The notes below the pieces were generated by a model. It did no database searches. It was not told where the DNA came from and saw only the letters and a program-made list of their open reading frames with translations. From Pseudoscleropodium purum (Eukaryota; Streptophyta; Bryopsida; Hypnales; Brachytheciaceae): a stretch of DNA of 64,000 nucleotides. The stretch lies in NCBI GenBank assembly GCA_963969395.1, contig OZ017796.1:40414243-40478242 (forward strand), written 5' to 3'. The stretch's first letter is position 1. The number at the start of each line of letters is the position of its first letter. The position numbers and the translations under genes are program-made. Of the stretch, positions 3-44,100 are shown one piece after another.

Positions 3-941
3 AACGTTCCAAAAGATGTGGGCAACAATAGTGGTGATGAGGGGGAACCAAATATTGCGGTACAGAAAAATAATGATTCACTTGGGATGGCAGTCACAAA
101 TTCGGCAATTGTAAAGAGTGATAAAGGAAAAGAGCCAATGAAGTCAATTTTTGAAGTACCGAGATCTAGTGCTCTTCCACCAATACCGTTGAAGTCTGTT
201 AGCACTCGATTGAATGATTCTCAGAGCTTTGGATATGGAAAACGCCTAATGAACATTTCCAAAGAAATTTCTATAGGCGGTAATCTACGGAAAGTAGCGT
301 CATCACCTATAAGCCTAAGTGATACGGATAGTGATCGGATGCCATTGCAGATGAGCGCGATGGCTTCTTTGGGGCAAGTGGCAGACACATGGCCTGCGGT
401 GAGGGGTCAAGGCTCATCTTTAGCCCTAGATCGCTACTTGTATGGTGCTTCAGGGGAGGTGGTGGTAGCGGTTGCCACTCGTGCTCAGACCATTGCACAG
501 GCGGTGGCACCCTCTTCCATTATGCTGGATAGTAGTGGTCGTTCACGCCATGTGGGTTTGCCGGACCACATTGGTCAGTCCCGGCTACCTCTTTTGTTCA
601 GCATTGCGGATGCGGTTTCTTCTACTGCCGCTCCCACATCGAATCCGGTCCCACCGGTTTCTTCTAGTCTTGGAGATGCTACACACACCTTGGCGTATAA
701 GGTGTTGCAGTTGCCGGTGTTTGCTGGCGTGGACTTTCTCACACCGGATTTTCAACCATCCGGTGTATTCCACTTGGCAGGTAGTATGTTGGAAGGCAAG
801 GTGCCCATTCCGTCGTTGGAGGTGTCACAGGCAATGACGGCTCCATCCACTGAGGAGGATTTGGTGGCAATGTGGGCCAAGTTGGCGGTGGAGGCTATTT
901 CTGCATTTGAGGCCAATGCCACTTCCACACCTACGGAGTAG
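3..941 (+). pseudogene. gag-like / N-terminal polyprotein region of the retrotransposon (5' partial)
   Basis: The frame is already open at base 3, so the true start probably lies outside the window. About 313 codons are visible. They are rich in Ser, Pro, Ala and Thr, with no recognisable capsid fold and no CCHC zinc knuckle, so the gag label rests on position only. The frame ends at TAG (939-941) and then continues without a shift into the protease region. The TAG may be a genuine gag/pol stop or, more likely given the other decay, a mutated CAG. Codon use and GC content match the downstream polyprotein, not the AT-rich flank. Confidence 0.5.
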
Positions 942-1720
942 TCATCCAAGGATCAGTCCTTGCTCTCTGGAGTGGCTTATTTGTCTGATGTTGCAGCCCG
1001 GTCGGCACGGGAGCGACATAGTACGCGTCCAAAGGTGATACGTTTGGTAAATGACGACGGAGTCATGGTGGTTGGCCGTACGGATGGCAACCCCACTCGA
1101 GCTACCCCCCTATGTGTTATGTTGGATTTCGGGGCTCAGCCAGTGATGATTGGCAAACAGCTAGCCCAAGATTTGGATCTAGGTGCTTTAGACCTCGAGC
1201 CTTGCCCATTCACAATTGTCACATCGGTCGGGGGAACGGAGAAGGCCATGGGGTACACCCAACATCCATTACAGTTGATGTTTGGCATGGGATCTGGTCT
1301 ATTGTTTTCACATGTCTCTCTTCAGTGCTTTGTGACTGGTGCCACCAACTACGACATTTGGGTGGGTCAGCAGGTACTTTATCCACACGGCTTTGGGGTG
1401 GATAACTGGACAGAGGAGGCTTGGATTAGGCCTGGGTGGTCTGCCGGTGATGGTAGCAAGGAGCTCATCCCCGTTGTCTTCGCATCTAGCACAGTGACTC
1501 CTACAGCGGATGCTATGTTTGGGTGCAGCATTTTGGCATCCGATTTGTCATGTGGTTCTACGCTTTTAGAGGAGACATATGCTTTTATGTCAGGGGTAGC
1601 CAAATCACAGGAGCACGTACCACCACAGATCCCTCTACGTCATTGCAAGGATCCGGTTCCACCTTGGGGGACTCAATTGGAGCTCACTCGCCGTAGTCGG
1701 GAGATTGTGGATGCTTTGGA
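942..1720 (+). pseudogene. retroviral-type aspartic protease domain, active-site motif altered
   Basis: This continues the gag frame. The segment around 1119-1160 has the signature of a retropepsin active-site loop, hydrophobic residues then Asp-x-Gly-Ala-Gln-Pro-Val, followed by alternating hydrophobic strands up to a Tyr-Asp-Ile-Trp-Val-Gly motif near 1350. That is the pattern of gypsy proteases, which cut the polyprotein. The active-site triad reads Asp-Phe-Gly (1125-1133) where the family has Asp-Ser-Gly or Asp-Thr-Gly. A Ser-to-Phe change needs one C-to-T transition, so this copy is probably inactive. No frameshift or stop occurs within the domain. The region downstream to about 1770 is a linker before the methyltransferase. 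Confidence 0.7.
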
Positions 1721-1769
1721 TGCTTCGCATTACTCAGAGTATTCTTCTACCCCGTTGTTGGCTCGTACT

Positions 1770-2758
1770 ATTCAGTGGCGTCCACCAGATGAGGGTATTA
1801 CCCTCGTGGAGCTCTTTGCCAGCATTGGTACAGGGCTAGCGGCGGTGTTAGAAGCCGGGTTCAAAGTACGACGGTACATTCATGTGGATAGTGGCTTTGC
1901 GGCCAACCGTGCCGCTCACCATCACATCCAACGTCTTTTGGCGTTGTATCCAGAGCAGTTACCACCTTTTGCGATTCGAAGGTGTTTTGGTAAATTGCCA
2001 CGTGATGTGACCTTGATTAGTGAGGATGATCTTCGCCAATTGGGTCATGTGGACTTGGTGATTGCCGGATGGCCTTGCCAAGGCCATTCACGGGCGGGCA
2101 GTGGACGTGGCTTGGATGATCCACGGTCGGGGCTCTTTGCGGATTTGCTTAGGCTCATCCAATGGTGGATTATCCACCAATCGATGCCACCGGGTACATT
2201 TTTGAGAATGTACCTCCATTGGGGGATACACGGACGAAGGTGCATGAGGATGGGGCATACATCCATCACCTTCTTGGTCCCCTCACGTATGTTGATGCCG
2301 CGGCGTTGGGCTCTTACGTCCATCGGCCACATTGGATTTGGACCAACTTGGCATCATCGGCAACGCTCACCTCTGCACTTGCACAAGTGCAGCGACCCGT
2401 GCGGCGTGAGGTGGATGACATCTTGGACGACCATCGTATTTCTACAGAGGTTACCAAGGATGATGAGCTACCTTTGGCTGTGGTGAACCACGTTGGTTTC
2501 ACATGGGGGGCATTTCCCACATTGATGTGCTACCCTAGGTCTTTTGCCTTTAGGACACGCGGTCCGGGTATGGTTTGGGACTCTACTTCCCAAACTTATG
2601 AGGAGCCTTCTGCCAATGAGAGGGAGCGGGCCATGGGCTTTTTGACAGGCACCACTGCGGCACCGGATCTCTCTGAGGGCCAACGTCGTTATTTGTTGGG
2701 TCAAGCTATTGACTTCAACACTCTTGTTTGGGTTTGTGGCCTCTGTTTTGCCTTTTAG
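1770..2758 (+). pseudogene. C5-cytosine DNA methyltransferase domain inside the retrotransposon
   Basis: The domain would transfer a methyl group from S-adenosylmethionine to cytosine C5. Motifs appear in canonical order. Motif I (SAM binding) lies at about 1800-1862 with Glu-Leu-Phe-Ala-Ser-Ile-Gly-Thr-Gly. Motif IV is at 2070-2081 and includes Pro-Cys-Gln with the catalytic Cys at 2076-2078. Motif VI, Phe-Glu-Asn-Val, is at 2201-2212. An Arg/His-rich segment ending Trp-Thr-Asn-Leu follows near 2320-2350 (motif VIII region). Glu-Arg-x-Arg-Ala-Met-Gly-Phe lies near 2620 and Leu-Gly-Gln-Ala near 2700 (motifs IX-X). By eye the spacing and the last motifs resemble DNMT3/DRM enzymes more than DNMT1 or CMT. 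A one-base frameshift lies between about 2150 and 2195, between motifs IV and VI, and a TAG ends the frame at 2756. All key residues survive, so the domain decayed recently. The reading frame continues directly into the pol region. Confidence 0.88.
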
Positions 2759-3058
2759 CGTCGTTCGCGTGACCAACCACACGTGCTGGGGGCAGACTCT
2801 GATGGTCAGAGGGCAGCGGTGCCACATCTCATAGAGAGCGAGGAAGCGGAGTTGCTTTTTCGTTTGGAGAGGCACGTGGATGAGGAGCTTCGTGCTCAGC
2901 GTGTCTTTGTAGCCTTGGCCGAGGACTTTGGTAGAGAGGATGCTGGGGATATCTTTTCCCGGTTTTATCATCACGATATGGAATTTTATATGAATCCCGT
3001 GAGTGAGAAGGTTAGGGGCATGAATGCCCTCTCTGCTACTAAGTAGCAATCATCGGCC
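2759..3058 (+). pseudogene. linker between methyltransferase and reverse transcriptase
   Basis: This is the same frame as the second half of the methyltransferase, bounded by TAG at 2756-2758 and broken by TAG at 3044-3046. About 95 codons are rich in Glu, Arg and Leu, suggesting a helical linker. I recognise no domain. It probably belongs to the same polyprotein, because the frame is unbroken apart from the amber stops. Confidence 0.5.
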
Positions 3059-3945
3059 GTGCCGGTACGTAGTGAGTCTTCTACGGTGGAGAAGGAGACC
3101 ACGGAGTTTGATGATTGGCCTTTGGAGTTAGGGCCACATCTTACTAGTGCCGAGGTACGAAGGGTGCGAGCGTTCATACGTTCGTATCGCAGCTATTTTG
3201 CCTTTAGTCTCCATAATTTGGAAGGCTATAAAGGCAAACCCATTCACATTGAGTTGGAGGACGACCATCCGATCTTCCGACGCCCGTACAAGCTCAGTCT
3301 TTCAGAGAAAGTTGGTGTGCAGACTCGTTGTCAGGAGTTGTTGGCCGCCAGCTTGATTGAGCTCTCTAACGGTGAATATGCTTGTGCCACAGTTATGCCA
3401 TCGAAGAAGGATATCTTTGGCAACTGGACGGAGAAACGGATGTGTGGCGATTATAGACCGGTCAACTGCAAGACCAAGTCAAACCGGTATCCCATGCCCA
3501 CGCTAGAGGAGTTATTTGATGTGGTGGGCCACGCTAGAGTATTTAGTACTCTAGATTTGCGGTCTGGTTATCATCAGTTACCATTGATGGTGGATGACCA
3601 AATGAAGACTGCATTCTGGGGAGTTGATCTGGATGGGAGAGATCAACTCTACCATTGGAAGTTTCTTCCATTTGGCCTCAAGAACGCACCCGCTGAGTTT
3701 CAGAGGGTGATGGACCGGGTGTTGACCGGTTTACTGTTTACTCGATGCTACATCGATGATGTTATCATTTTTAGTAGCAGCCCACAAGAGCATATGAGGC
3801 ATCTTCAGGAGGTATTTGAGAGATTACGGCAGTAGGGATTACATTTGCACCATGGCAAGTGCAAGTTCTTCCACGACCGATTGCCATATTTGGGACACAT
3901 GATTGTTCCAGGGGGTCTTGGCGTATAGCACGCCAAGGTAGATGC
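3059..3945 (+). pseudogene. Ty3/gypsy reverse transcriptase domain
   Basis: The domain copies element RNA into cDNA. Visible hallmarks are the N-terminal Pro-x-x-Arg-Arg-Pro-Tyr segment near 3270-3290, a Cys-Gly-Asp-Tyr-Arg-Pro-Val-Asn motif near 3440-3470, Thr-Leu-Asp-Leu-Arg-Ser-Gly-Tyr-His-Gln near 3546-3580, Leu-Pro-Phe-Gly-Leu-Lys-Asn-Ala-Pro near 3665-3695, and the catalytic Tyr-Ile-Asp-Asp box at 3749-3760. The frame is the one used by the second half of the methyltransferase. Amber stops interrupt it at 3833 and 3927. Both sit where the family often has Gln or another residue one transition away. The thumb/connection region runs on into the RNase H segment. The assignment is secure; the copy is dead. 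Confidence 0.93.
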
Positions 3946-4827
3946 ATTGCAGAAGATTCCTGCCCCAACCGACGTGTCACGGCTTCGAGCTTTTCTTGGC
4001 TTGGCGAATTACTATCGCCGATTTGTCAAAAACTTTAGCTTGATTGCTAAACCGTTGACTATTCTCACAGGAAAGGATCAACCATGGACTTGGGGACGCG
4101 AGCAGGAGCATGCATTTGCTACCTTGAAGCTGAAGCTTGGTTCAGCTCCTGTATTGCGGCGTCCGGATGCAACACGGCCCTTTCAATTGCACACAGACTA
4201 GAGTGCGGTGGGATTGGGTGCAGTATTGACTCAGAAGGATGAGGAAGGACAGGAGTATGTTGTTTCTTTTGCTTCTAGGAGCAACAACAATGCGGAGTCC
4301 AACTATCATCCTATGAGGGGGAGGCTTTGGCAGCGGTTTGGGCCATAGCTCATTTCAAGCCTTATTTGTATGGGCAACGTTTTACATTGGTGACCAACCA
4401 CCAGCCTTTGAAGTGGCTCATGGAGTCTGACAAGCTCACTGGCAAGCTTGCCAGGTGGGCTTTGTTGCTTCAAGAGTATGATTTTGAGGTTGTACATCGG
4501 GCCGACATCACCAACTTGGATGCAGATGGTCTTTCTTGCAATCCAAGTCCTTCGGAAGAAGATGTGACTGGTGCTAGGTGGCATGGGGATTGTGATAGGG
4601 AGTCGGTTCCGGAGTGGCATGCAGCAGCTTATCTCACCTTGATGTCTGGCTCCACATCGACGTTGTTTGACTTGACAACGGATGAGGAACCAGACAAGGC
4701 CCAAGTTGTTAGCGATGTGTGGGAAGACATTCCAGTCTTGCACAAGCTACAACATGGGATGCTTCCACCTGCTCTTTCGGCTATGGAGCGCGATCGAGTT
4801 GGACACCGGATAACAAGGTTTCGTTGA
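3946..4827 (+). pseudogene. RNase H domain (connection plus RNase HI fold), frameshifted
   Basis: The domain removes RNA from the RNA-DNA hybrid during reverse transcription. The connection region (Leu-Arg-Ala-Phe-Leu-Gly-Leu-x-Asn-Tyr-Tyr-Arg-Arg-Phe, about 3970-4025) leads to the His-Thr-Asp catalytic start near 4192-4198. A TAG follows directly at 4199, where gypsy elements commonly have Trp. After about 35 more codons a one-base deletion near 4296-4312 shifts the frame. The rest (Glu-Gly-Glu-Ala-Leu-Ala-Ala-Val, then Thr-Asn-His-Gln-Pro-Leu-Lys-Trp-Leu, then His-Arg-Ala-Asp-Ile-Thr-Asn-Leu-Asp-Ala-Asp-Gly-Leu-Ser) is typical RNase H to about 4545. A spacer follows to the TGA at 4825. Confidence 0.9.
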
Positions 4828-5640
4828 GAGAACGACCTTCTATTTCGGGTGTGGCCGGATGGGACTAGGCGCATAGTTCCCAGGCCAGATCAGAGGGCTT
4901 TGTTGGTACGGCAAGTACACGAAGACCTTGGTCATTTTGGTGTGCGACGGACTCATTCGATATTGCGCAACCAATATTGGTGGACCGGCATGTATCAGCA
5001 GGTCGCCATTTATGTTTCACGGTGTGAGGTGTGTGATCGGGTGCGATCCAGCTTCAACACTTTATCACCGCAGTTGCAACCTTTGCCCATTATAGGATTG
5101 GGCTATTGTTGGTCCTTGGACTTTGCTGGTCCACTTGTCGTAACTCCACGTGGAGCCAAGTATGTCTTGGTGATGGTGGAGCATTTCAGCAAGTGGATTG
5201 AGCTTGTGGCTCTTCCACAAAACTCTTCAGAATTGGCGGCCATGGCATTCCTCGACCAAGTGTTGGCTCGTTTTGGAGCCCCAGTTGAGGTTTTGACTGA
5301 TCAGGGGTGAGATTTCCTTGGGGCTTTTGAAGCTTTGTGTACCAAGGCTTTGATTGACCATCGTACCACTTCTCGGGATCATCCGGAAGCAGACGGTTTG
5401 GTGGAGCGTGTGGTTCAGACCGTAAAACCGGGCCTACGGAAGTATGGATTATTCCAAGGTGGCCACCATGATTGGGATCTGATGATACCATGGATCGCCA
5501 TGGGGTATCGGTTTAGTCAACTGGCTGCTTTCAATCCGTATCAGTTGTTATACGGACGAGAGCCCATTCTACCCTGTTCTGTACGGGAGAAGTTGGCTCT
5601 TGTTGTGGATTTGGATGATCCAGAGGTGTAGATCCAGTGT
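4828..5640 (+). pseudogene. Ty3/gypsy integrase (zinc-binding and catalytic core)
   Basis: The domain inserts the cDNA into the host genome. The N-terminal HHCC zinc site is visible: His-x4-His near 4918-4935 and Cys-x2-Cys near 5023-5036. The catalytic core shows Asp at 5119-5121 (Leu-Asp-Phe-Ala-Gly-Pro context), Asp at 5299-5301 (Leu-Thr-Asp-Gln-Gly) and Glu at 5404-5406, so the D-D-about-35-E triad is intact. Gly-Tyr-Arg and Pro-Tyr-Gln-Leu-Leu-Tyr-Gly-Arg segments near 5510-5560 are typical of the core end. TGA at 5308 is one transition from CGA, and TAG at 5629 one transition from TGG or CAG. The frame is the third of the element and continues from RNase H. Confidence 0.92.
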
Positions 5641-6180
5641 TTGCGTGACCGAGCGAAGTTCTTCAAGTGGGCCATGCCGATGGCCATGGAAAATTTATCC
5701 ATTGCTCAGCATTGCGACACGCTACGGTACGCTCGCATTCGTAGCGGCGCCTACCGACCTTAGTTGCGACGTTTTTCCACGGGGGATTACGTTTATTTGC
5801 AACGTGAGGCACCCACGACGTTGGACGTTAAGGCTGGACGGACCATTCTTTGCATGAACAATGTGTTGCCCAGTGGTATCTTATTGTTGGAAGGCATGGA
5901 TGGCCGGGAGTGTCGGGAGTACTCTAAAAATTGTGCTCCTTGCCATTTACCCATTGATGGCTCCGTTCATCCTGAGTTGGCCGTTGTGCTAGAGGGCCTT
6001 TCATGTTTTGTGTGTGGTGAGAAGAAGGGCGCTGCTACCATGTTATTGTGCGATCATTGCCAGCGTGGATGGCATATGGCTTGCTTGACGCCGCCTCTTT
6101 CTACTCTACCGTCCGGGAATTGGACTTGCCCTCGTTGTAGGAGGTTTTCTAACCATGTTTCACGTAGTGAACTGGCTTGA
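5641..6180 (+). pseudogene. integrase C-terminal region ending in a PHD zinc finger
   Basis: After TAG at 5761 the frame continues through a short SH3-like integrase tail (Gly-Asp-Tyr-Val-Tyr-Leu near 5788) to a PHD finger at 6004-6138. Cys-x2-Cys is at 6004-6015. A Met-Leu-Leu-Cys-Asp-x-Cys segment lies near 6040-6060, then Gly-Trp-His-x2-Cys near 6068-6084, and a final Cys-Pro-x-Cys at 6127-6138. The Trp before the last Cys pair is present. PHD fingers read histone H3 tails. Many plant gypsy integrases carry a chromodomain here instead, so this finger may steer integration toward a chromatin mark (inference). The natural stop is TGA at 6178-6180. The finger itself has no stop or frameshift. 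Confidence 0.85.
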
Positions 6181-7066
6181 CTTTCTCGTGCACTTTCACT
6201 GGTGTGGTGCGTTGCCATCTAGTTAGAGTTCTTGATTTTGTTTCAGATATAGGCAACGTGAAGATTGACCAAGGGACTGGCAACAAAGTTGCCTAAGGCG
6301 ATTAAAGATGGGGCTCACATTGCACCCGGCCTACCCTCTCTTTATTACTTCTCCATGCGCTTATTGATTCGGCGATGGATTACCTTTTGACTGGATGCGT
6401 ATAGTTGTTGCAGCGACATCACCATGGCGATAGTCTATGTTGTGTTGTTTGGTCCTAGCGAATTAGAGGGGCTCTTTATCCGCTAGGGAGGGCACTCGAG
6501 GGTGTACTTAGCATAGTTGTATTTGACTATGTTTCTCGTTTGTTTGATGTTGGTTGAGACTCTTGATCTGTTGTGGTTATCGATCTTTTTTTACACGACA
6601 GTTGTTACGGGATGTGGCGTCGGGGGCCTCCACATCGTAGTGTTTTAGCATAGGTTAGTTGTTGCTAATCTACGTGTATGTGGGACGTGCGGCTGGCACA
6701 CCTCATTCATCCTACGGATGAGTTTAATCCGTTAGGATTTTATGTGTGTGTGTGTATAGTGGCACACACGTGCTTGACTTGACGTCTTTGTCAAGTCAAG
6801 CTTTGTGAGTGAGTTAGAGAGTGTTAGTGATTACCGTTGCTTGTAAGTGATTGTTTGTCATTAGTGAAGGCTCCGCATTCTCTCATACTTCTTACACTCG
6901 TTGATTCTCCCTTTGTGGAGTGCGAGTCGCTTGACTACTCTTGTGATTTGCAACATATTCCTCGAGGGTGTACTTAGCATAGTTGTGTTTGACTATGTTT
7001 CTCGTTTGTTTGATGTTGGTTGAGACTCTCGATCTGTTGTGGTTATCGATCTTTCTTTACACGACA
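6181..7066 (+). repeat. 3' non-coding/LTR region of the retrotransposon with an internal 106-bp direct repeat
   Basis: This region is non-coding. A 106-bp segment at 6495-6600 recurs at 6961-7066 with three mismatches, 466 bp apart. The first copy follows a purine-rich stretch (GGGAGGG near 6487) that could be the polypurine tract. The second copy ends in ACA exactly where AT-rich host DNA starts. One reading is that 6495-6960 is LTR sequence followed by a truncated second LTR copy; another is that the LTR itself carries terminal direct repeats. A (TG)n run sits near 6744-6755 and a perfect 12-bp inverted repeat at 6772-6801. The 5' LTR is not in the window, so LTR limits cannot be fixed. Confidence 0.6.
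6772..6801. repeat. perfect 12-bp inverted repeat with 6-bp loop
   Basis: Arms GCTTGACTTGAC and GTCAAGTCAAGC flank GTCTTT. The structure lies in the 3' non-coding/LTR part of the retrotransposon just downstream of a (TG)n run. It could be an RNA hairpin in the transcript or a protein-binding dyad. Confidence 0.8.
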
Positions 7067-8029: not shown

Positions 8030-8322
8030 CAGGGTTGACAGGACGATCGGACGTCCGGGATGTCCGGACGTGGACGTTGTGTCCGCAGCGTCCGCTGACA
8101 TTCGCGGACGCCGTCCGCCCCGTCCGCCCCGGTATGACCGTCTGCTCGGTTACGGCCGTCCGATCAACACGCAAATTGATCTGGTTCGCATGATCTGGGC
8201 ATCCGCCCCGCCCATCCGCCTTCCGACGGCGGGAAGGACGCTGCGTCCGTTGGTGTCCGTGAGGACGGACGTCCCGGTTACGAACGCCTTTTTCGGGCGG
8301 ACGTAGAGATTCGTCAACCCTG
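8030..8322 (-). mobile_element. hAT-type MITE, copy A (293 bp, GC-rich)
   Basis: The ends are CAGGGTTGAC and its reverse complement GTCAACCCTG. The direct repeat TCCCCAAG (8022-8029 and 8323-8330) flanks it exactly, and an 8-bp duplication with CAGGG ends is the hAT signature. The interior is dense in CGGACG/CGTCCG hexamers, very unlike the AT-rich surroundings, and encodes nothing convincing. Its left end matches the right end of copy B at 21503-21833 and the reverse also holds, so A lies inverted relative to B. It must be moved by a transposase encoded elsewhere. Confidence 0.88.
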
Positions 8323-15109: not shown

Positions 15110-15487
15110 TGTGGAATATGACTCACCGTAGTCATATTTTGGCTGATGTGGAATATCACTACAATAAGTCATATTTTGAGTAATATGGAATATAATTGTA
15201 GTGAGTCATATTTTAAGTAATTTGGATTATGACTATATTGAGTCATATTTTAAGTCATATTTTAATTGATTTGGAATATGACTACAGTGAGTCATATTTT
15301 AAGTGATATGGAATATGACTACAGTGGGTCATATTTTAAGTAATATGGAATATGACTATGATGAGTCATATTTTAAGTGATATGAAATATGACTGCAGCA
15401 AGTCATATTTTGAGTGATATAAAATATGACTATAGTGAGTCATATTTTGGTTGATGTAGCATATGACTATAGTGAGTCATTTTTTTG
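15110..15487 (+). repeat. subterminal minisatellite, about ten 37-bp units
   Basis: Each unit contains ATATGACT, six variable bases, then AGTCATAT followed by a T-rich spacer, so every unit is itself a dyad. Nine units are about 37 bp and one is longer, near 48 bp. The array sits in the left subterminal region of the CACTA-like element and probably provides transposase-binding sites (inference). Confidence 0.8.
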
Positions 15488-21502: not shown

Positions 21503-21833
21503 CAGGGTTGACGAATCTCTACGTCTGCCCCAAAATAGCGTCCGTAACCCGGACGTCCGAACACATGGACGCCAGCGGACGCAGCGTCCCTCCCACCGTC
21601 AAAAGGCGGACGGGCGGGCGGACGGGGGCAGACGGACAGGGTGGACAAGGCGGACGGGGCGGACGGACGGGGGTGGACAGGGCGGGCAGGCGGATGGGCA
21701 GACGGACGCGGACGGGGCGGACAAGCGGACGGACGGGCCGACGGGCGAACGGGGCAGACGACGTCCGCGAATGTTAGCGGACACTACGTCCGCGTCCGGA
21801 CGTCCCGGACGTCTGACCATCCTGTCAACCCTG
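21503..21833 (+). mobile_element. hAT-type MITE, copy B (331 bp, GC-rich)
   Basis: The ends CAGGGTTGAC and GTCAACCCTG are flanked by the exact 8-bp direct repeat TAAATAAG (21495-21502 and 21834-21841). The first 25 bases equal the reverse complement of the right end of copy A almost perfectly, and the other end likewise matches copy A's left end. The interior is a purine-skewed array of CGGACG/GGGCGGAC words longer than in copy A. ORFs through it are artefacts of that repeat. Confidence 0.9.
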
Positions 21834-42086: not shown

Positions 42087-43703
42087 TTAAGGCAACTTGT
42101 GCCCTGCCCGGAACAAATGTTCACTCGTTTCCGAGGTGGGAGCGCAACCCCACATTTCCATTTCTCGGATCACTTCTTTGGCTTTCGCCAAGCGCCCCTC
42201 CTTGCAGTAGAGTCGAATCATCACATTGTAAACATCGGAGGTCGGCACAAACCCCGTGATTCTCATGTGGTTATACACTTTCACGGCTTTGTTGACATCT
42301 CCAACCTTCTCACAGAGACGAATCATCACACGGTAGGCCACCAGATCTGGCTTCACCCCTGCCTCTTCCAGGTTCCAGAACAAAGCTAACGCCTGACGCA
42401 GTTTGCCTGCACGAGCTCTCGCCTGCATCAGCGTCGTGAACATCACAATGTTTGGCTTGAATTCCTGGTCTACATACCGCTGAAACACATCCTCTACCTC
42501 GTCAATTAACCCTAATCTGCTACACACAGTCATGACGAGGGTACACTCTTCCAGTTTGAAGTCCCGACCAGCAAGTAGTAAATCGTGGACAACGTCTCTA
42601 GCACCTCCTTCACCTGCTTTCACAATCATCTTGGCATAGAGCTCTGAACCTCCAGAGACTCCTGTGTCTTCCAGAATTTTCAAAGCGTCCCTAATGAATC
42701 CCTGTTCTACGTAAGCATTCGCGGCCACAAGAGCAGACTCGGGCGACAGAGGTCCATACAAAGCGAGAAACTTATTTGCGAGAGCGAGCTTTCGGGATTC
42801 CACGACAACAAGCACACTGGCTAACAGAACGTCGTCATCCGGCCACAGTCGAGGCTGCTCCCTCACCCAAGCAAACAACTGCAAGGCTTTCCCCACGCAA
42901 TCCCTACGCCCAAGCTGAAGCAGCAAATTCGCAACTCCGACACTCTTGCTTCGAGTCCTCCCTTTCCACGAATCCAAAATCATCCGTACCTCGTCATCTG
43001 GAACGCAAAGAAGCTTCGCAAACAGCCTAGGGTACAAGAACGCCGGCGCTTTCGGTGGCGGCGAGGGTTTACGGTTTCGGCGTACAGGAAGAGCAACCTC
43101 AGGTAACAGGCTACGGCGTGACAGAGGCAGAGGAAACGGACGGTTCAACTTGTGAGGCATAGGAATGGGCAAAGTGCGACCCCTCTCAAAGGGTTTTCCC
43201 ACCTCCGAGTACCGACGAAGCAGCGACGGGTGCGGATTCGACTCAATCTGCACCAAGCCTTGCGCGTCGCGTGCTTCGCCAGCACCTACTTGCGCCAGTA
43301 ACTCCTCCAGGCTCACATTCTCCAAAGACACAGGACTTACGTCTTCTAAATCTCCGGAGAAACTCAATCCAGGAAGACAGTTCAAACGTGAAAAACCTCG
43401 ACCTTCCACAATCTTAAAACCTGCACCTCCAGATGACGAGCATCTCGCTTCTACTGTCACTACCACACGAACCGAACCTACGGTACATCCAAATCTCGTC
43501 AAATGCAGGACACGAGTAGCAAACTTCTGCTTCAAATTGCGAAGCGGACGTTGTTCAGAGTCGAAGCTCGGACGGAAATGCTCAAAAAATTGGTTGCTGT
43601 CAACTCTGGGAAGCGCCCGCAACATCGTGCTGTAATGCTGGCGTTTGAAAAGCTTTTGAAAATTCCTGCAAGTCGGCAATTGTAGCGCGAAAAATTCTTT
43701 CAA
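42087..43703 (-). CDS. P-class pentatricopeptide repeat (PPR) protein
   Basis: A single intronless frame of 538 codons. The C-terminal third shows consecutive 35-residue PPR repeats, for example segments beginning Pro-Asn-Ile-Val-Met-Phe-Thr-Thr-Leu-Met, Pro-Asp-Leu-Val-Ala-Tyr-Arg-Val-Met-Ile and Pro-Thr-Ser-Asp-Val-Tyr-Asn-Val-Met-Ile. More degenerate repeats extend back to about residue 250. There are no E, E+ or DYW extensions, so it is P-class. Such proteins bind organelle RNAs and act in splicing, stability or translation. The first 60 residues are rich in Arg, Ser, Leu and Phe with few acidic residues, suggesting a mitochondrial or plastid transit peptide, and Pro/Arg-rich linkers follow. 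I used the first Met of the frame; a start at Met-27 is possible. The absence of introns is usual for plant PPR genes. I cannot name the orthologue. Confidence 0.88.
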   Translation of the reverse strand: MKEFFALQLPTCRNFQKLFKRQHYSTMLRALPRVDSNQFFEHFRPSFDSEQRPLRNLKQKFATRVLHLTRFGCTVGSVRVVVTVEARCSSSGGAGFKIVEGRGFSRLNCLPGLSFSGDLEDVSPVSLENVSLEELLAQVGAGEARDAQGLVQIESNPHPSLLRRYSEVGKPFERGRTLPIPMPHKLNRPFPLPLSRRSLLPEVALPVRRNRKPSPPPKAPAFLYPRLFAKLLCVPDDEVRMILDSWKGRTRSKSVGVANLLLQLGRRDCVGKALQLFAWVREQPRLWPDDDVLLASVLVVVESRKLALANKFLALYGPLSPESALVAANAYVEQGFIRDALKILEDTGVSGGSELYAKMIVKAGEGGARDVVHDLLLAGRDFKLEECTLVMTVCSRLGLIDEVEDVFQRYVDQEFKPNIVMFTTLMQARARAGKLRQALALFWNLEEAGVKPDLVAYRVMIRLCEKVGDVNKAVKVYNHMRITGFVPTSDVYNVMIRLYCKEGRLAKAKEVIREMEMWGCAPTSETSEHLFRAGHKLP

Positions 43704-44100
43704 CCCTAACGTTTCAAGCTCGCCATCAACTGCAATGGCAATTAGAATCGTGTTGAAAAATTCAGAGGCCGAAACCCTAATTCTCTACAACAAGGCTTCC
43801 TCACCAAACGTGAAATTCTGAATGCAAGATGCAGAAGAACCAAAATCTTGAATTCAGAAACTGCTGACGAGAAAGTCCTGTCGTAGCCCCTATAACCGTG
43901 TATTCAAACTTGAAGGTCCCTCACTCTGCATCCTCCATTTCTTCGCTAACTTATTTAGGAGCGAATTTTCTGGGTTTTATTTTGCAGAGAAGAAATCACA
44001 TTAGAAGATTTTTGGGGCCTCTGGATGCCTGCGAGTTATCACAGCCTGCAAACGCAGAGAACAGGTTCGGTGCAGCAGTCTGACGTGACCGAGACCCTGC
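43704..44100 (-). promoter_or_regulatory. probable promoter/5' leader of the PPR gene with two telo-box-like motifs
   Basis: AACCCTAA occurs near 43702-43709 and AAACCCTAATT near 43772-43782 (reading on the plus strand), just upstream of the minus-strand ATG. GC content falls sharply left of about 44100, so the gene-associated sequence seems to end there. Confidence 0.45.

Follow-up and report, generated by a model that had tools for sequence, protein, structure and literature searches.

The stretch of DNA analysed here, hereafter the window, comprises 64,000 nucleotides of Pseudoscleropodium purum (Bryopsida, Hypnales; contig OZ017796.1, positions 40,414,243 to 40,478,242 of the forward strand). 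At positions 347-7066 of its plus strand lies a Ty3/Gypsy-type retrotransposon, decayed and truncated at its 5' end, that carries its own C5-cytosine DNA methyltransferase (MTase); an earlier note on this sequence had proposed such an element, and the Pfam domains together with many copies of the same order confirmed it. The domains of the window copy follow the order gag, protease, C5-MTase, reverse transcriptase (RT), RNase H, integrase (H2C2 and rve) and PHD finger. On the basis of sequence comparison, we regard as established the anatomy of the element, its recurrence in two families of one genome, the conservation of the sequence around one stop, purifying selection on MTase and PHD finger, split repeats accompanied by target duplications, and a single clade of the sampled MTases. 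We consider it quite probable that the window holds a decayed copy of a Ty3/Gypsy family whose working form would encode Gag-protease-MTase in a first open reading frame (ORF1) and, by readthrough, RT-RNase H-integrase-PHD in ORF2, and which would methylate its own DNA, be targeted by its PHD finger and integrate from circles.

Structure of the window copy

The C-terminal part of gag occupies positions 347-941, where a TAG at 939-941 closes the frame; the sequence before 347 is unmatched in other copies. The aspartic protease region (942-1440, borders approximate) has the motif DFGAQP at 1125-1142 and a weak Pfam match (0.05). The motif begins with DFG in the window copy versus DSG in L014, another copy in this genome, and L131, a relative on an outside contig, and the protease domain exceeds the curated Pfam cut-off in an ORF of L024, a copy of the second family. 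The DNMT3-type C5-cytosine MTase extends from 1797 to 2758 and is broken by a TAG at 2756-2758; the Pfam profile DNA_methylase matched the ORF at 942-2486 with an E-value of 5.4e-10. Its motifs I to X stand in the usual order, with motif I (ITLVELF) at 1797-1817, Pro-Cys-Gln from 2073, the Glu-Asn-Val (ENV) motif within YIFENV at 2195-2212, and the C-terminal motifs reaching 2719. The core motifs named in the earlier note are thus present, but not all in one frame. The single frameshift that it had placed between MTase and RT is found near 2195, within the MTase itself, and separates the frame of motifs I-IV from that of motifs VI-X; TAGs also cut the frame.

A weakly conserved linker (2759-3043) leads to a stop with the readthrough context UAG-CAA-UCA (3044-3052), recognised by comparison of copies. 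Pfam then located the RT (3047-3835; RVT_1, E-value 1.2e-21), an interrupted RNase H region (3929-4827) and an interrupted integrase with its H2C2 zinc finger and DDE core (4828-5631). The PHD finger, which the earlier note had overlooked, lies after the integrase at the end of its ORF (6004-6144) and was identified by Pfam (E-value 4.1e-12) and by relatives of solved structure. The element shows the order RT-RNase H-integrase with a DDE (rve) integrase and H2C2 that defines Ty3/Gypsy elements. It lacks the identical full repeat at both ends that an ordinary long terminal repeat would provide, its 5' end being a repeat A and its 3' end a repeat B. In the window copy, a purine-rich run that may serve as a plus-strand primer (6484-6494) adjoins the first repeat B (6495-6600, with a terminal CA), which is followed by a 2-bp spacer, GT (6601-6602), that joins the CA of B to the TG of A and forms the internal junction, by repeat A (6603-6960), and by a second repeat B (6961-7066) that is the 3' end of the element.

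Complete copies carry another repeat A as their 5' end. Because homology to the other copies begins at 347 and no 5' repeat was present within 8 kb upstream, the 5' part of the window copy has been lost. In addition, its frame is cut by the two TAGs mentioned above, both of which are glutamine codons in L014 and L131, by the frameshift near 2195 and by more breaks in pol; to judge from these lesions, the window copy is dead.

Copies in the genome and host methyltransferase genes

A profile search of the 313-Mb genome with PF00145 returned 72 places on 11 contigs, 19 of which were taken as 10-kb loci. Eighteen of the 19 contained gag, protease, MTase and RT, and in 15 of these 18 the RNase H, integrase and PHD finger also fell inside the 10-kb piece (exceptions L012, L013 and L027). 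Twelve loci, about 90% like the window copy, constitute family A, while L015, L018, L020, L021, L022 and L024 constitute family B, with 46-52% identity over protease and MTase and 69-75% over RT; in the MTase the two families are about 50% identical. The remaining locus, L010, holds a DRM gene of the host, whose motif order is rearranged (read by eye); in L029-L031, intron-bearing host genes resemble, by their motifs, one MET1 and two DNMT3 genes. The host thus has separate multi-exon genes resembling two DNMT3 (L030, L031), one MET1 (L029) and one DRM (L010).

Several genome copies sharing the protease-MTase-RT order had been named beforehand as the test of a true element domain, and all 18 further element loci have it. 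These loci also led us to reject the opposite case, a host gene fragment captured by one copy. That the MTase is such a fragment, a dead passenger of a single copy, is extremely improbable: the window copy is indeed broken, but the domain recurs at the 18 further loci and in two diverged families, an outside relative keeps its frames open, dN/dS is 0.08 (see below), and the DRM, MET1-like and DNMT3-like genes of the host are separate from the element.

A scan of outside genome contigs gave 11 loci, of which only L131 represents this element; the other ten are bacterial matches with 24-46% identity. A scan of viral contigs gave 53 loci with 25-45% identity, six of which were taken as a tree outgroup. 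L131 is located on contig CADCWO010000201.1, which is titled as a cyanobacterial bin and is probably plant DNA inside a metagenome bin. Its MTase is 93% identical to that of L014, and at the DNA level it is 86-87% identical to family A. Its ORF1 (gag-protease-MTase, 1162 residues, clipped by the sequence end) and ORF2 (RT-RNase H-integrase-PHD, 1047 residues) are both open and in the same frame, with one UAG between them.

Two further features of family A were observed. Short repeats with a 54-bp offset and its multiples occur in the 5' leader of some copies (L017, oriented 911-1204; L012, 1360-1598), and L027 combines a 4-bp duplication with an inverted internal rearrangement.

Type and relatives of the methyltransferase

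The element MTase is a predicted enzyme of the DNMT3 type. Its motifs I to X are unrearranged, and in a structure-based alignment of 32 hand-picked sequences the catalytic Cys and the Glu of ENV were invariant in all 32. DNMT3 is nearest to it by sequence and by fold; in the tree, the clade of retrotransposon enzymes sits on a long stem with no supported sister group. The DRM type was rejected, the motifs being rearranged in the host gene L010 and unrearranged in the element.

Two protein searches, one of which scored only the 7996 candidates with the most shared words, yielded 118 distinct relatives (P0004-P0121). The named sources included Marchantia polymorpha, Calypogeia fissa, Closterium sp. 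NIES-53 and NIES-54, Haematococcus lacustris, and a Mesvir1 identifier, which we take to be Mesostigma; no Klebsormidium nitens protein was among the matches of these two limited searches. An RT occurs in the same predicted protein in Marchantia and Closterium; the proteins of Calypogeia, Haematococcus and Mesvir1 show none and were placed by their MTase. By these predicted proteins, the liverworts Marchantia and Calypogeia extend element MTases into land plants. A domain scan of 120 proteins (the 118 relatives and the genome ORFs P0002 and P0003) found the MTase before the RT in 15, after it in 36 and without an RT in 69. There are two domain orders, one with the MTase before the RT and one with the MTase between RNase H and integrase. 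An integrase was present in 54 of the 120 proteins, with a PHD finger 3' of it in 45 of the 54.

For phylogenetic analysis, 102 near-complete MTase domains, 40 of them from predicted proteins with no RT or integrase, were clustered at 68% identity into 60, and 30 of the 60 were hand-picked for a second tree. The 60 formed one clade against 20 outgroup rows (SH-like approximate likelihood ratio test, 99), and the 30 were likewise monophyletic (100/100) when set against 6 phage enzymes and 10 DNMT3-like enzymes from hosts or bacteria. The two domain orders separated with a support of 99 both in the RT tree, with 12 versus 35 rows, and in that of the integrase, with 7 versus 47. The single MTase clade, together with RT and integrase trees divided by domain order, suggests that the MTase has long travelled with the RT and the integrase. 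The earlier note had left a choice between a relative of known elements and an independent capture. Kinship is borne out in so far as the MTase falls in one clade with other element MTases of the green lineage, apart from host DRM and DNMT3; the matches compared did not include the Klebsormidium sequence in print. One capture followed by a move, two captures, or transfer between hosts may all be compatible with these trees, which lack MTase-free outgroups. We consider it rather unlikely that the two domain orders go back to Gypsy elements with a PHD finger having captured related MTase genes on two separate occasions. The different position of the MTase and the separation of the two groups in the RT and integrase trees would fit such captures, but the MTases of both orders form the single clade of the second tree, in which outgroup sampling is thin.

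The stop between methyltransferase and reverse transcriptase

The window copy and the 18 element loci (13 of family A, 6 of family B) were compared at the stop between MTase and RT. A stop is present in all 19 copies, as UAG in 18 and UAA in one, and the hexamer that follows fits the tobamovirus-type readthrough consensus, given as UAG-CAR-YYA in the text of PMC3542737, in all 19. All 13 family A copies, the window copy included, read UAG-CAA-UCA, as does L131; in family B the context is UAG-CAA-CCA in 5 of 6, and L020 has UAA-CAA-CCA. Coding sequence continues in the same frame on both sides, and both frames are open in L131. Since a stop stands at this place in 19 of 19 copies, with a fitting hexamer, and in L131 as well, we rejected ordinary decay as the origin of the UAG at 3044-3046. 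These patterns suggest a candidate readthrough signal with a tobamovirus-like context; if it works, it would explain the dosage of the MTase relative to the RT.

Many database ORF1 proteins (approximately 1330-1450 residues) share their terminal residues, ..SATK or ..SSN, with the genome copies. Relatives such as Closterium P0048, in which a single predicted protein spans both MTase and RT, show that the stop is not universal. RNA folding 3' of the stop gave no consistent signal (z of -2.07 in family A and 0.21 in family B).

Selective constraints on the domains

The ratio of nonsynonymous to synonymous substitution rates (dN/dS) was estimated between L131 and family A, using 13 copies for MTase, protease, RT and linker, 12 for gag and 10 for the other domains. 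Median values were 0.08 for the MTase, 0.06 for the protease, 0.09 for RT, 0.08 for RNase H, 0.07 for the integrase, 0.06 for the PHD finger, 0.10 for gag and 0.51 for the linker; because the family A copies have a common ancestry, these amount to approximately one comparison. Between L131 and family B, the values were 0.16 for the protease and 0.43 for the linker where dS was computable, and 0.13 for the MTase and 0.06 for RNase H from a single finite pair each, the others being saturated. The ratios point to purifying selection on the MTase and the PHD finger, and we read them as indicating that constraint on the MTase was as strict as on the replication enzymes during the active period of the lineage. 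Transposons are usually victims of DNA methylation, and an MTase selected as strictly as the polymerase suggests that methylation has a role within the transposon's own cycle.

Terminal repeats and insertion forms

Ends were inspected in 32 copies, and both were found in 22. The ten left out were the window copy, L012, L013, L024, C41:2515329, C42:23070120, C48:17447867, C41:39223656, C44:1078260 and C49:5338677, in which one or both ends were unrecognisable in the pieces taken. The common complete form is A-coding-B-NN-A-B, in which A measures approximately 360-380 bp and B 106-120 bp, the outer ends are TG..CA, and NN is GC, AC or GT. A 4-bp target duplication was exact in 20 of the 22 copies and matched at 3 of 4 bases in L014 and L026. 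The order A-coding-B-A-B was found in 14 copies (13 of family A and L020 of family B) and A-coding-B in seven, namely L027 (internally rearranged), C42:21365983 and C44:3399839 of family A and L015, L018, L021 and C41:22615453 of family B. One copy, L022 of family B, has the permuted order A-B-GC-A-coding-B, with the duplication TTCC. A purine-rich run precedes the first B in 12 copies of both families in which the start of that repeat was located, but not in L027, and 'ACTTGA' or a near form follows the first A in 6 of 6 copies examined. An assignment to the DIRS/PAT elements was rejected: Pfam scans of ORF1 and ORF2 of L131 found no tyrosine recombinase, and an rve integrase and target duplications are present instead.

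Proposed mechanism

In the proposed cycle, translation would yield Gag-protease-MTase from ORF1 and, by readthrough of the leaky UAG, RT-RNase H-integrase-PHD from ORF2. Encoded ahead of the stop, together with Gag, the MTase would be made in Gag-like amounts and packaged in the particle, where it could methylate the new DNA of the element before integration. The PHD finger may steer the integrase to particular chromatin, a role like that of the chromodomain in chromoviruses, which are the chromodomain-bearing Gypsy elements. Its nearest solved relatives include the PHD fingers of CHD4, PHF12, DPF2/3, PHF21A, KDM5, UHRF1, ATXR5 and AIRE. Because PHD fingers of this kind mostly bind histone H3 unmethylated at K4, the element PHD finger is a putative chromatin reader for integration. 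Reverse transcription would produce B-A terminal repeats, the DNA would circularise, and the integrase would cut the circle within the repeat at CA-NN-TG. If the circle contained two B-A units, it would give A-coding-B-A-B or A-B-A-coding-B, depending on the junction at which it was opened; with one unit it would give A-coding-B. It is from the permuted copy that we infer integration from circles.

Several observations weigh against parts of this cycle. Inspection by eye of the sequence after the first A revealed no tRNA-primer site. Random opening of a circle predicts the permuted form in parity with the common one, yet it was seen in one copy of 22, against 14 of the common form. Moreover, the A-coding-B form can also be explained by recombination between two B repeats; for these reasons we state circle integration conditionally. 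Within the genome, dN/dS is 0.41-0.80 in family A and 0.93-1.32 in family B, as expected of copies that, by these ratios, have been decaying since insertion. Family A elements, with CpG values of 0.68-0.73 against 0.50 in their flanks, show no depletion, and family B elements have 0.42-0.46; because family A is not CpG-poor relative to its flanks, CG self-methylation is not favoured. In addition, the enzyme of KnitGypsy-Dnmt3, a published Klebsormidium element, gave no methylation in yeast, which its authors judged inconclusive in the text of PMC5890265.

Two alternatives concern these same points. The MTase might chiefly target the chromatin of its host, or other copies of the element, silencing rivals or shaping insertion sites, rather than the element's own new DNA. 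A PHD chromatin reader conserved like the MTase in the same element and the lack of CpG depletion in family A would suit this, but the stop separates the MTase from the PHD finger, so that most MTase would be made without it, and the position beside Gag and protease suggests packaging; we consider this alternative quite unlikely. A second alternative, which we find somewhat doubtful, is that the split repeats and isomers arise from a linear concatemer or DIRS-like copying rather than from one- or two-repeat circles cut by integrase. The ratio of 14:1 and the DIRS-like repeats described for the published relative in PMC5890265 favour it, but a DDE integrase with 4-bp duplications contrasts with a tyrosine recombinase without duplications, and L022 shows permuted order and duplication together. 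Tentatively, and with a little less than even confidence, we retain a broader proposal in which an element with a DDE integrase integrates from a circle at its internal CA-NN-TG junction and packages an MTase that marks its DNA beforehand, and in which the MTase-PHD lineage is ancient in the green lineage rather than a set of isolated captures. If the circle reading is true, the element offers a natural system for DDE integration from a circle.

Sequences around the element

A GGACGG-rich sequence of approximately 120 bp flanks the element on both sides (window 8203-8322 and 4556-4683 of the upstream piece L009, 79% identity), and a similar tandem stretch lies at window 21603-21759. Some 4 kb before the element, L009 748-4158 is an open frame that would encode 1137 residues, including a coiled region and a weak RING-like zinc finger. 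Elsewhere in the window, a 37-bp unit is repeated in tandem approximately 10 times (15112-15485), and an open frame of 565 residues on the minus strand (42090-43784) resembles, by eye, a host gene for a pentatricopeptide-repeat protein.

Comparison with known systems

The element is of an already known kind, a retrotransposon with its own MTase. Earlier reports of such enzymes, which the earlier note had mentioned, do exist: the text of de Mendoza et al. 2018 (PMC5890265) describes LINE and DIRS elements of Symbiodinium and KnitGypsy-Dnmt3 of Klebsormidium, with DIRS-like repeats, and proposes self-methylation; it also states that two SymbioDIRS enzymes produced CG methylation in yeast. The streptophyte and dinoflagellate report is repeated in the text of PMC12344493. 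Judged by description, the sequences not having been compared, the closest published relative of the window element is KnitGypsy-Dnmt3 of Klebsormidium nitens, which is described as having Gypsy domains, an unrearranged Dnmt3-type MTase in its polyprotein, DIRS-like repeats and purifying selection on the MTase. In the available text on KnitGypsy-Dnmt3, which presents it as an independent acquisition, a PHD finger, a readthrough stop, a target duplication and isomers are not mentioned. SymbioDIRS-Dnmt3 and SymbioLINE-Dnmt are, in the same source, likewise retrotransposons with a C5-MTase and proposed self-methylation, but their backbones are DIRS (with a tyrosine recombinase) and LINE, not Gypsy.

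PAT/DIRS elements share the A-coding-B-A-B repeats and the internal circle junction, whereas the present element differs by its DDE integrase and 4-bp duplication; DIRS elements, according to the text of PMC3266345, integrate from circles by tyrosine recombinase without target duplications. The retroviral two-LTR-circle model of 1984 (LTR, long terminal repeat) combined the same internal circle junction with a DDE integrase and target duplication; it was dropped for retroviruses, in which linear DNA integrates instead, as the text of PMC11054761 puts it, whereas here the junction lasts in the common genomic form. In the open-licence PMC literature, judged mainly by titles and abstracts, we found no report of Gypsy-DNMT elements of bryophytes, of a PHD finger in them or of circular Gypsy isomers. 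With tobamovirus-type stops the element shares the UAG and its six-base context, but its stop sits between MTase and RT; with chromoviruses it shares a chromatin reader after the integrase, which is a chromodomain there and a PHD finger here. As far as we have searched, the copies in land plants, the PHD finger, the readthrough signal, the second domain order and the insertion isomers go beyond the published concept.
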